This document shows, one piece after another, positions 24,474-29,906 of a stretch of DNA of 29,976 bases. The stretch comes from a virus. The position numbers were made by a program, and so were the translations under genes. A model generated the notes under the pieces. The model ran no database searches. It was given only the letters and a program-made list of their open reading frames with translations, and was not told where the DNA came from. The DNA lies in IMG/VR virus record IMGVR_UViG_3300005537_000053, positions 1-29,976 of that record; one strand, written 5' to 3'. How positions within the stretch are numbered: position 1 is the stretch's first letter; each line of letters opens with the position of its first letter.

Positions 24474-24689
24474 ATGAAAACCGCTATTTTCGCTATGTTG
24501 AGTGTGATGTTGGTCACGGGCTGCGTGAGTGAGAAGACCGCGCTCACCAACGCTGCAGGGCAACAAGTCCACTGCGACGCCTGGGGGTTCGGCCTGATCG
24601 GCGCCCCCGTCGCTATGGCATCGCACCATGACTGCATGGAGAAGGCCAAGGCGGCGGGGTATTCGGAGTTCCCCAAGGCTAGCCAGTAA
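24474..24689 (+). CDS. Small lipoprotein, likely lysogenic moron, 71 aa
   Basis: Signal peptide MKTAIFAMLSVMLVTG with lipobox VTGC, so it is lipidated at Cys17. The mature part is ~54 aa (CVSEKTALTNAAGQQVHCDAW; GLIGAPVAMASHHDCMEKAKAAGYSEF), with two further Cys that could pair. It resembles small outer-membrane lipoproteins of bacteria. It is transcribed against both flanking early genes, so it likely has its own promoter and could be expressed in the lysogen (Bor-like or exclusion protein; inference). GGGAG lies 10 nt before ATG. Ends 11 bp from the convergent gene's stop. Confidence 0.75.
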   Translation: MKTAIFAMLSVMLVTGCVSEKTALTNAAGQQVHCDAWGFGLIGAPVAMASHHDCMEKAKAAGYSEFPKASQ

Positions 24690-24700
24690 GCGAGGGACAC

Positions 24701-24973
24701 TCATCGGCGGCCTCCCTGCCGGCCGGCGCCGGCATGTGCCGCCGGGATCGCGGCTTCTACGGAGTCCTCGCCGAGCCAATCCGTCTGGGCTCCGTTCGCC
24801 TGCAAAAGCCGGTGTGCGACCTTGAAGGCATGAGCTTTACCCTTCGCCCATTCGTTGAGTGCGTCCCGCGCAACGGCAGCCTTGTCCTTGCCGGTGGCGC
24901 GCGCCTCGATTTCCAACCAAACGTCGGTGGCTTCGGGTATGGCGGTACGGCAGTCCTTCAGGGGGAGGCTCAA
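24701..24973 (-). CDS. Ribbon-helix-helix-like protein downstream of cro, 90 aa
   Basis: Residues 10-45 (TAIPEATDVWLEIEARATGKDKAAVARDALNEWA) fit a beta-strand, helix, turn, helix pattern as in small RHH-type DNA-binding proteins, followed by GKAHAFKVAHRLLQANG and a disordered Gly/Ala tail. It occupies the position of lambda cII (after cro on pR), but no CII-like homology is seen. TTG start at 24973, 3 nt after the cro stop, with GGGGAG upstream. Assignment to RHH is by pattern only. Confidence 0.55.
   Translation of the reverse strand: MSLPLKDCRTAIPEATDVWLEIEARATGKDKAAVARDALNEWAKGKAHAFKVAHRLLQANGAQTDWLGEDSVEAAIPAAHAGAGRQGGRR
24717..24734. other. GC-rich stem-loop at the convergent gene ends
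   Basis: TGCCGGC-CGGC-GCCGGCA (7-bp stem, 4-nt loop) lies ~28 bp after the lipoprotein stop and inside the 3' end of the RHH-like gene. No T-run on either strand. Possibly a bidirectional pause/stability element between convergent transcripts. Confidence 0.3.
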
Positions 24974-24976
24974 AGG

Positions 24977-25177
24977 TCAACTCCCCTTCCGGGTCGTATA
25001 GTCGTCAGGGTTGAAAGTCAGCGCGCCACCGGTCAGCTTCTCGAGGCGGGCTGCGTGGAGGGGTGGCACCCGGTTTGTCTTTTTCCACTTGGACACGGCT
25101 GCTTTGCCGACACCCAGCGCCCGAGCAACCGCTGACTGATTACCGTTGAACCACCTTATGACTACTTCGGCTTGCAT
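24977..25177 (-). CDS. cro: Cro-like HTH regulator (YdaS/Cro type), 66 aa
   Basis: MQAEVVIRWFNGNQSAVARALGVGKAAVSKWKK contains a classical helix-turn-helix (about 12-33); then RVPPLHAARLEKLTGG, the common end of YdaS/Cro proteins (family: E. coli YdaS, DicC, lambdoid Cro). It should bind the operators upstream and favour lysis. ATG 25177 is selected over a 12-codon longer frame because the pR promoter and operator lie in the extra stretch. Transcript predicted leaderless. First gene of the pR operon. Confidence 0.85.
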   Translation of the reverse strand: MQAEVVIRWFNGNQSAVARALGVGKAAVSKWKKTNRVPPLHAARLEKLTGGALTFNPDDYTTRKGS

Positions 25178-25182
25178 CTTTG

Positions 25183-25203
25183 AAGAGTATCGTATCCGAT
25201 ACC
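25183..25203. promoter_or_regulatory. Operator OR1 (21-bp, perfect copy at OL1)
   Basis: Carries the dyad GTATCG-TATC-CGATAC (25187-25202). The whole 21 bp recurs exactly in reverse orientation at 25742-25762. It lies between -35 and start of cro, so repressor bound here should block pR. Confidence 0.75.
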
Positions 25204-25213
25204 GACAAGGCAA
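25186..25213 (-). promoter_or_regulatory. Promoter pR (cro operon)
   Basis: On the minus strand: -35 TTGCCT (25213-25208), 16-nt spacer, -10 GATACT (25191-25186). Eight bases later is the cro ATG, so the mRNA should be leaderless or nearly so. The operator covers the spacer and -10. Confidence 0.6.
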
Positions 25214-25227
25214 GCATACGCTACCTA

Positions 25228-25246
25228 CGGATACTTATAGTGTCCG
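25228..25246. promoter_or_regulatory. Operator OR2 overlapping the cI promoter (pRM)
   Basis: CGGATAC (25228-25234) and GTGTCCG (25240-25246) form arms matching at 6 of 7 bp. Between them is TATAGT (25236-25241), a good plus-strand -10, 6 nt before the cI ATG. No decent -35 is seen for it, as for activator-dependent pRM in lambdoids. Likely autoregulation of cI. Confidence 0.6.
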
Positions 25247-25247
25247 T

Positions 25248-25544
25248 ATGGAAACATTCGGAAGTCGTATCAGGACCGCGCGCAAACTCCGGGGCTGGAG
25301 TCAGGAAGAGTTGGGGCGGCGCGTAGCCACCCTACTGGCGCGAGCGACCCCGCTTGGCAAGGCCGCCGTTCAGAAGTGGGAGGCAGGGGACACTCGCCTG
25401 CCCGAGGCGGACGTAGTGTATGCGCTCTCCATTATTCTGGACATGCCCCATGATCTGCTTATCTGGGGCGAAGATCGTAAGCCGCCAGGGATGCGCCGGC
25501 ATCCCGCGACGCCGGAACGCAAACCACCGTTCTCGCGCGAATAG
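25248..25544 (+). CDS. CI-like XRE repressor without autocleavage domain, 98 aa
   Basis: HTH region FGSRIRTARKLRGWSQEELGRRVA ... PLGKAAVQKWEAGDTRLPEADVVYALSIILDMPHDLLIWGED is a full XRE-type DNA-binding domain (residues 3-75). The last ~23 residues are Pro/Arg-rich (RKPPGMRRHPATPERKPP) with no peptidase or dimerisation domain, so it cannot be a RecA-cleavable S24 repressor. ATG 25248 follows TATAGT by 6 nt, with no SD, hence leaderless. It sits opposite cro, bounded by operators. Induction route unknown. Confidence 0.8.
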   Translation: METFGSRIRTARKLRGWSQEELGRRVATLLARATPLGKAAVQKWEAGDTRLPEADVVYALSIILDMPHDLLIWGEDRKPPGMRRHPATPERKPPFSRE

Positions 25545-25654
25545 CCCTCGGTATAGCGGCCGGAAATCCACGAAGATAATCTTGCCGAGCGCTACGGCGC
25601 GTATCGATTTCATGTCCGCCTGACCCCCTTCCCAATTCTGGCGCCTGTAGCCGC

Positions 25655-25705
25655 CTAGAGACATTTGGCGCCCGCGCCATTCGTCTTGGCCGTGAAGTTC
25701 ATCAC
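25655..25705 (-). CDS. Possible 16-aa leader peptide antisense side of pL
   Basis: GTG 25703-25705 with a strong GGAGGTG 5-7 nt upstream; product (M)MNFTAKTNGAGAKCL, stop TAG 25655-25657. It overlaps the ATG (25664) of an uncertain 110-aa antisense frame. The strength of the SD suggests that something is translated leftward from the OL region toward cI. Otherwise 25545-25721 holds no gene I can support. Confidence 0.3.
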   Translation of the reverse strand: MMNFTAKTNGAGAKCL

Positions 25706-25721
25706 ATTTTCACCTCCAATG

Positions 25722-25762
25722 GTATCCGTTAGTTGACTCAAGGTATCGGATACGATACTCTT
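25722..25762 (+). promoter_or_regulatory. Operator OL and promoter pL
   Basis: Half-site GTATCCG (25722-25728); -35 TTGACT (25733-25738); 21-bp operator (25742-25762) with -10 GATACT (25754-25759), 15-nt spacer (or TACTCT with 17). The ATG of the first left gene is at 25768, 8 nt after GATACT, so the transcript should be leaderless. The operator is the exact inverse of OR1. Confidence 0.7.
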
Positions 25763-25767
25763 GGTCC

Positions 25768-25971
25768 ATGGCAACCAAGAAAACTGAACGGGACCTGAAG
25801 GAACGCCCAACCGAGGATGAACGGTTCTGGCAGGCCGTATACAACGCTGCCGTCTGGCCGATCCTCCTGGCCCACGACGGACAACAGCTCACCCCGATCT
25901 CTGCGGCACATCTGTGTGCTGACTTCGCGGACGCCTCTCTCATTGAGCTCCACCGGAGGTTCCCGAAATGA
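25768..25971 (+). CDS. First gene of the pL operon, hypothetical, 67 aa
   Basis: Charged N-terminus (MATKKTERDLKERPTEDERFW) and a helical rest (QAVYNAAVWPILLAHDGQQL; ISAAHLCADFADASLIELHRRF). No recognised domain. The ATG comes 5 nt after operator OL1 and no SD is present, consistent with a leaderless early mRNA. It sits where lambdoid phages carry an early regulator (N position), but no Arg-rich antitermination motif is seen. Its stop overlaps the next ATG (ATGA). Confidence 0.7.
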   Translation: MATKKTERDLKERPTEDERFWQAVYNAAVWPILLAHDGQQLTPISAAHLCADFADASLIELHRRFPK

Positions 25972-26066
25972 CCTGCTCCCCGATCGAGCTGGCCCTGCTC
26001 TGCATTGCTGCTGGGGCAGTCGGCAGCATCCTCACCATCGTCTCGCTCTACAGGCGGATCCCATGA
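25968..26066 (+). CDS. Small single-TM peptide, 32 aa
   Basis: M-T-C-S-P-IELALLCIAAGAVGSILTIVSLYRRIP: a hydrophobic helix (7-27) ending in YRR, i.e. a membrane peptide with cytoplasmic C-terminus. ATGA overlaps both the gene before and the gene after. Too short for length-based calling, but the coupling on both sides supports it. Possible lambda cIII/Ral-like or membrane-effector position; no homology seen. Confidence 0.6.
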   Translation: MTCSPIELALLCIAAGAVGSILTIVSLYRRIP

Positions 26067-26230
26067 GTGACGTGCTGCTGCATTACCAGATGCTGGCTGC
26101 CGCGCGAGGCGCCGAGATCAAGCAGCTCCGCGATGACCTCACCGCCGTGACGCTGGAGCGCGATGCCCTGCGCGAGGAGCTTCGACAGATCGAACACATC
26201 ATCGAATCAAACAACAAGGAGCCGACGTGA
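26063..26230 (+). CDS. Coiled-coil protein, 55 aa
   Basis: MSDVLLHYQMLAAARGAEIK then a clear heptad helix (QLRDDLTAVTLERDALREELRQIEHIIESN). ATG overlaps the upstream stop (ATGA), and TGA overlaps the downstream GTG (GTGA). Likely a small oligomeric accessory or inhibitor; no family recognised. Leftward-operon early gene. Confidence 0.65.
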   Translation: MSDVLLHYQMLAAARGAEIKQLRDDLTAVTLERDALREELRQIEHIIESNNKEPT

Positions 26231-29856: not shown

Positions 29857-29906
29857 TGGTGCGCGCAGACGGGATCGAACCGCCGACATTCGCCTTGTAA
29901 GGGCGA
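29857..29906 (-). other. attP core: tRNA-Val(TAC) 3'-half
   Basis: On the minus strand: anticodon stem TCGCC, loop CTTACAA (anticodon TAC), GGCGA, variable loop, T-arm GGCGG-TTCGATC-CCGTC, then acceptor TGCGCGC and ACCA, next to the integrase stop. No D-arm or acceptor 5' strand precedes it, so it is a fragment, not a tRNA gene. It would restore the tRNA on integration. Confidence 0.85.

Follow-up and report, generated by a model that had tools for sequence, protein, structure and literature searches.

Organization of the Switch Region

The virus record IMGVR_UViG_3300005537_000053 is 29,976 bases long, and the whole of it, called the window here, was analyzed. Its open reading frames fall into a long block on the minus strand, a divergent pair of cro- and cI-like genes, and a block on the plus strand. 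Family searches with eight of the proteins identified one gene for replication initiation or a DnaD-like protein, one for the annealing protein ERF and one for an integrase. Among named phages, 14 records matched the window, all in short stretches, 12 of which lie at the ERF gene and the other 2 at a piece of tRNA.

The divergent genes belong to the Cro family (PF14549) and to the CI-like helix-turn-helix family (HTH_3) and are separated by 70 nt, which is the arrangement of a lambdoid switch (Table 1). The S24/LexA-like C-terminal autocleavage domain that characterizes SOS-cleavable lambdoid CI is absent from the 98-aa product, and no peptidase domain was reported in it by the family search at E 0.01. 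Induction by RecA-stimulated self-cleavage is therefore unlikely for a repressor predicted to be this short.

TABLE 1. Features of the predicted switch region, in window coordinates.
Feature	Position	Strand	Remarks
cro-like gene, 66 aa, start ATG 25177	24977–25177	-	P22_Cro, PF14549, E 1.3e-14
cro -10: GATACT (25186–25191) or TACTCT (25184–25189)	25184–25191	-	8 or 6 nt before ATG
Operator-like 21-nt repeat, copy 1, overlapping cro -10	25183–25203		exact inverted copy at 25742–25762
Imperfect 21-nt palindrome ACGGATACTTATAGTGTCCGT, candidate OR3-like operator	25227–25247		8/10 positions pair
cI -10 hexamer TATAGT	25236–25241	+	6 nt before ATG 25248; same spacing as lambda cI
cI-like repressor gene, 98 aa, HTH only	25248–25544	+	HTH_3, E 2.4e-08
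pL promoter, TTGACT-17-TACTCT (6 nt to ATG) or TTGACT-15-GATACT (8 nt)	25733–25761	+	from promoter scoring
Operator-like 21-nt repeat, copy 2, overlapping pL -10	25742–25762		exact inverted copy of 25183–25203
ORF67, first pL gene, 67 aa, ATG 25768, no SD	25768–25971	+	homolog in related locus L054

Two further features lie outside the switch genes. A lipoprotein-like gene (MKTAIFAMLSVMLVTGC...) with a Shine-Dalgarno (SD) pairing of -8.2 occupies 24474–24689 on the plus strand, opposite to the left early operon, and is a candidate lysogenic conversion gene; small genes with signal-like starts were seen by eye in a similar place in L052 (3000–3269, +) and L051 (2488–2775, +). Just after the integrase, 46 bases (29857–29902) match tRNA-Val of two Acinetobacter phage records at 91%. 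ARAGORN found no whole tRNA in the window, and this tRNA-like piece is probably part of the attachment site.

Promoter and Start Codon Geometry

Read along their own strands, the three switch genes begin as ...GGTATCGGATACGATACT-CTTCAAAG-ATG (25177) for cro, ...GGATACT-TATAGT-GTCCGT-ATG (25248) for cI and TTGACT...GGATACGATACT-CTTGGTCC-ATG (25768) for the first pL gene. Each has an ATG start codon, and at each a -10-like hexamer stands 6–8 nt before it. The first-pass annotation had proposed that all three mRNAs are leaderless, and direct reading of the sequence reproduced its hexamers, coordinates and spacings (cro 8 nt, cI 6 nt, pL 8 nt) exactly.

The cro and pL promoters carry a 21-nt block, GGTATCGGATACGATACTCTT, which is exact and inverted between them. 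GATACT is 8 nt from the ATG at both, and those 8 bases are partly different. Since the block is identical at the two promoters, the presumed operator and the -10 would form one shared cassette. The repeats are putative sites for binding by CI or Cro. Similar repeats are also found in L052, L055 and L062. The palindrome ACGGATACTTATAGTGTCCGT spans the cI -10 and reaches the cI ATG.

Promoters were scored with -35 and -10 weight matrices that are approximate E. coli sigma-70 frequencies and may not describe the promoters of the host. At pL, TTGACT-17-TACTCT (9.7) and the GATACT reading (8.2) are the best and second-best promoters, and the two -10 readings at cro score 7.1 and 7.7, TACTCT being about as good as GATACT. 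With either reading, the predicted 5′ ends of the cro and pL transcripts are no more than about 4 nt from the ATG. When each upstream region was shuffled 200 times with dinucleotides preserved, 13% of the cro shuffles and 7% of the pL shuffles had their best promoter at 4–10 nt from the start, and the observed score was reached at that distance in 2.5 and 0.5%. The cI gene is without a good -35; the best full promoter of its strand is elsewhere, and a weak site 47 nt upstream ranks above the near one. All the switch hexamers are poor matches to the consensus, and none was picked up by the consensus search described below.

The absence of an SD, also proposed for the three switch ATGs, was confirmed in the 20 nt upstream, where the best anti-SD pairing is -3.1 (cro), -3.3 (cI) and -3.1 kcal/mol (pL gene), at the level of the background (median -2.6 kcal/mol in 400 random 20-mers of the window). 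Good SDs had also been noted for the rest of the genome, and 32 of the 43 other genes do reach -5.5 kcal/mol or better; 11, the integrase among them, fall short in this count, which takes author-chosen ORFs and the best of several candidate starts per gene. Because of these 11 genes, a weak SD alone was dropped as a mark of the three switch genes. Within the window alone, the geometry and pairing lend moderate support to leaderless transcripts; with the relatives described below, it becomes strong at cro and fair at cI.

Spacing Upstream of cro in Relatives

Searches with cI, cro, ERF, the DnaD-like protein and the gene that follows cro supplied related loci, and further loci came from a sample of 369 genomes, 11 of which had a P22_Cro match. 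The upstream regions of relatives were then collected with 21 cro and 18 cI query proteins, chosen by the authors from both SD-type and short-spacing loci, and with a start picker that prefers ATG. For cro, 85 usable matches collapsed to 32 distinct upstream regions, the window included, and 5 more had no usable start. L006–L020 have no cro row of their own and were presumably collapsed into L050; L069–L071 have no row.

The best promoter lies 6–10 nt before the start in 19 of the 32 cro-like upstream regions, 20–35 nt before it in 12 and at 12 nt in one (L059). Pairing with the anti-SD fails to reach -5.5 kcal/mol in 19/19 of the near group against 3/12 of the distant group, a cut-off that was set after the table had been seen, with L051 close to it at -5.1. 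Thus, a good SD occurs in nine of the 12 upstream regions with a distant promoter and in none of the 19 with a near one, and in one of the three weak-SD distant cases (L097) the start was probably wrongly chosen. The association of spacing group with pairing (Fisher p 1e-5; Mann-Whitney p 5e-4) is indicative only, because the rows are related, the cut-off is post hoc and a near -10 leaves less room for an SD. In shuffles made row by row for 24 cro rows, the best promoter fell 4–10 nt from the start in 7–17%.

A profile search with the Cro alignment gave no result, the alignment being too divergent. The gene after cro has one relative in a cellular genome, L063, a MAG (Proteobacteria bacterium), in whose genome the Cro family was not found. 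In L051 (3160–3290), the best promoter is 6 nt from the ATG for both genes of a different cro/cI pair with the repeat ACTACCTTGGTAGTT, whose cro has a moderate SD match (-5.1). The layout thus recurs with an unrelated operator.

The cI Start in Relatives

All nine close cI relatives (L062, L067, L068, L088, L089, L090, L092, L093 and L094) carry TATGCT before the cI ATG, 6 nt away in five and 9 nt away in four, and the spacer between hexamer and ATG has nine different sequences in the nine. The corresponding -10s are TATAGT at 6 nt in the window, TACGCT at 6 nt in L052, TACCCT at 8 nt in L054 and TATCAT at 8 nt in L055. A hexamer kept while its spacer varies would be expected from selection acting on a -10 rather than on a ribosome site. 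The gap between cro and cI is 70–75 nt in 13/13 loci (the window and 12 relatives chosen by the authors as close), and outside this set it is 84 nt in L051 and 68 nt in L063.

The full cI promoter was not recovered in the same way. From 53 cI matches, collapsed to 27 distinct upstream regions (2 more had no usable start), the best full promoter lies 5–10 nt before the start in only three (L051, L055 and L076). The window cI is not among them, so that it must have an activated promoter or one at another site. The mostly missing good -35 would by analogy resemble lambda PRM, which is activated by CI.

A Small Gene Facing cI

Between the 3′ end of cI and pL, a small gene begins on the minus strand at an ATG at 25613 and runs to 25332, into cI and antisense to it. 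Near its start is a conserved motif of the type ...ENVTWVRF..., which in the window reads KSIRAVALGKIIFVDFRP. The gene was found in 13/13 loci examined (the window, L052, L054, L055, L062, L067, L068 and L088–L093), in 12 by pattern and in L092 by eye and then by analysis. Over nine codons around the motif, a stretch picked for protein similarity, codon positions 1, 2 and 3 differ at 0.28, 0.31 and 0.59, which suggests that the gene is coding. Five of the 13 proteins were searched against PHROGs and Pfam, where no family lay above the cut-off and the better of two weak Pfam matches had E 0.017. The product is possibly an unannotated accessory protein of the switch.

The First pL Gene and Its Start

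A promoter-like copy downstream of cI was examined in 12 loci, in which the pL -10 was assigned by the authors as lying 17 nt after a TTGAC-type -35; this count leaves out L092 (no TTGAC in the 900 nt searched), L094 (which ends inside cI), L051, L063 and L064. L091 and L094 come from one sample and have the same cI start. An ATG follows the -10 by 6–8 nt in 5/12 loci (the window, L054, L062, L088 and L090), ATC takes that place in four (L067, L068, L089 and L093), and L052, L055 and L091 differ. The near ATG opens a gene with a homologous product in the window and L054 only. The L054 homolog of ORF67 (MATRKPEH..., pairwise E 4e-9) starts 6 nt after its own -10. ORF67 itself matched no database family below E 0.005 and no related loci in viral_contigs. 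By sequence reading, the ATG of L062 shares its frame with a later, SD-bearing GTG; that of L088 begins a frame of 13 codons whose end overlaps the next gene in a GTGA, and that of L090 opens an overlapping frame. In these three, the real pL gene may start further down. A leaderless pL gene is thus plausible in the window phage and is not a fixed trait among its relatives.

Conservation in relatives of the distance to the ATG, which had been suggested as a check of the leaderless reading, was therefore found for cro and for the cI -10 hexamer, was absent for the full cI promoter and was mixed for pL.

The predicted pL transcript start has further sequence features. The pattern CCAT[GC] occurs there in 9/12 loci (window 25766–25770 and eight relatives). 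The codon in it is ATG in five of these loci and ATC in the other four, which looks like gain or loss of a leaderless start codon at a fixed place. The palindrome CTTGGT-CCATGGCA-ACCAAG around ATG 25768 was considered as an mRNA hairpin and dropped, because its 5′ arm would be untranscribed if the RNA starts at the ATG. In L052, L055, L062, L067, L068, L089, L090 and L091, a hairpin was seen by eye at the predicted RNA start, its 5′ arm formed by the first transcript bases and its 3′ arm holding GGAG- or GGGG-like bases that are the likely SD of the first gene in most of these loci. Folds computed from 4 nt downstream of the -10 end gave a partial hairpin in six of them, and L062 and L089 paired differently. 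No such hairpin was seen in L088 or L093. A hairpin of this kind could gate translation from the pL leader.

Interpretation and Alternatives

Taken together, the predicted spacing, the pairing at background level and the relatives point to a compact divergent switch in which cro and cI are leaderless (leader of about 0–4 nt) and the first pL gene very probably is as well, a reading to which we give a probability of about 0.77. Of the three leaderless mRNAs first proposed, those of cro and cI thus stand as the best reading, leaders of 1–4 nt included, and that of the pL gene as likely. RNA polymerase would start the cro and cI transcripts at the start codon or about 0–4 nt from it, so that both mRNAs would be translated by leaderless initiation, and the first gene of the pL operon would very probably be made in the same way in the window phage. 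In so small a switch, the operators would cover both promoter and start region, and the synthesis of the regulators would be set by the rate of transcription start, with no control borne by a leader. The 5′ ends, the promoter activity, the binding by CI or Cro and the leaderless initiation itself are all predictions from sequence.

The part that concerns pL is the one most exposed to a different account, in which leaderless initiation is confined to cro and cI. The pL transcript would still begin where proposed, but ORF67 would be a minor or non-functional ORF, and the first real pL gene would be the one at 25968. That gene has a strong SD (-10.2), and the pL operon opens with a leader in L052, L055, L067, L068, L089, L091 and L093. 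Against this stand the ATG kept at the pL start place in five of the 12 loci and the L054 homolog, similar at its N-terminus and in the same place after the -10, which is thin evidence since only one homolog was found. We hold this account to be unlikely, if a serious one. It is less probable still that the mRNAs start further upstream, for example at a cI establishment promoter, and that the genes are read from SD-less leaders. The cI start is without a strong promoter, and the database record of P22 notes an establishment promoter, RE, for c2; yet the -10 hexamer is kept beside the ATG in the relatives, and a search of 24900–26100 for consensus promoters (9 of 12 matches, spacer 16–18) found none. 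With no SD in the 20 nt before the cro, cI and pL ATGs either, an alternative promoter giving an SD-bearing leader, which would have spoken against leaderless transcripts, was not found. For cI, reading from an SD-less leader may coexist with the leaderless form.

The short spacing would be an artefact of gene calling if the true start codons were elsewhere, and in-frame TTG codons do exist upstream of cro (25213) and cI (25146). However, five relatives have starts that align with the cro ATG, and the METMGD-type start of cI relatives is also found in L095 and L096, in which this ATG is preceded by an SD of -7.1. Among upstream start candidates, the best SD for cro is -3.9 and none for cI is better than the -3.3 of the ATG, so we regard misplaced starts as very improbable.

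A Possible Link to Ribosome State

The first-pass annotation had also suggested that leaderless initiation could link the switch to the state of the ribosome. Such a link is speculative, finds no support in the present results and is not implied by leaderless cro and cI. Because both opposing genes look leaderless, a change in leaderless initiation would scale both arms and be balanced out to first order; the CI:Cro ratio may then be protected rather than made sensitive. Lambda differs in this respect, its cro having a strong SD and its arms being unlike. According to the accessible text of a 2022 review, the regulation of leaderless translation known so far acts globally, e.g., through translation factors and initiator tRNA, and that of particular leaderless genes still needs research (PMC9031893). 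That this phage group has a wholly leaderless switch, with leaderless mRNAs for both opposing regulators and in some members for the first pL gene as well, in which SD-dependent initiation is bypassed and commitment responds to, or is balanced against, ribosome state, is a doubtful proposal.

Should the geometry correspond to real 5′ ends, doubly leaderless switches would be a recurrent design among phages with a P22-type Cro and a short CI, and the pL gene would show leaderless and leader forms side by side in relatives. Such pairs would offer a natural test of leaderless initiation in lysis-lysogeny under stress, cold shock and kasugamycin.

Comparison With Known Switches

Leaderless cI is a textbook case. 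In lambda, whose cI is called leaderless in the accessible text of two reports (PMC4488713; PMC8630535), our scoring placed TAGATT 6 nt before the cI ATG, with an anti-SD pairing of -3.0 and a weak -35 (TAGATA), so the window cI is like lambda cI at PRM in spacing, weak -35 and want of a good SD. Lambda cro is unlike the window cro, which looks leaderless: its -10 is 24 nt off and its SD is strong (-12.6). P22 Cro matches the window Cro (tblastn, 49% over 55 residues), but P22 cro has a spacing of 30 nt and an SD of -5.8. P22 c2 resembles the window cI in layout, with the -10-like hexamer TAAGAT 9 nt before its ATG and, in the database record, the RM 5′ nucleotide 4 nt before it; its best full promoter is elsewhere. 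By the same scoring, cro of phage yong1 has its promoter at 31 nt and an SD of -5.9, and cro of phage AL falls into neither class (44 nt, SD -3.0). The PY54 cro hexamer CATAAT was placed 6 nt before the ATG, and PY54 cI, leaderless by RACE, was missed by the promoter-distance criterion. The scoring is thus informative and imperfect.

In CP-933P of E. coli, the CI analogue PaaR2 is leaderless by RACE and N-terminal sequencing, and the paaR2/ydaS pair, in which YdaS is the Cro analogue, is likened here to the window by its description as having a short, 97-bp intergenic region; unlike the predicted window cro, ydaS is not called leaderless in the accessible part of that report (PMC8630535).

The closest precedent is PY54, a Yersinia telomere phage, in whose immB region the cro and cI mRNAs both begin at the AUG by RACE, according to the accessible text of a 2015 report (PMC4488713). 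The two switches share the divergent cro/cI order, a Cro of the P22_Cro family (8.9e-14 for PY54) and a short distance from -10 to cro ATG, 6 nt in PY54 and 6 or 8 nt here, where the leaderless state is predicted. They differ in their proteins, with no BLASTP match between the Cro proteins and none meaningful between the CIs, and in the S24 peptidase domain, which PY54 CI has and the window cI lacks. A leaderless pL gene is not mentioned for PY54 in the accessible text (PMC4488713), whereas that of the window is predicted to be leaderless. Among the matches listed in the open-licence literature, no title or abstract opening described another leaderless cro. Leaderless cro and cI together are thus not new, and given PY54 they are less unusual than the first-pass annotation supposed. 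What appears new, as judged from the sequences compared, is that a layout predicted to be doubly leaderless, like that mapped in PY54, recurs in a group of environmental relatives of an uncultured temperate phage.
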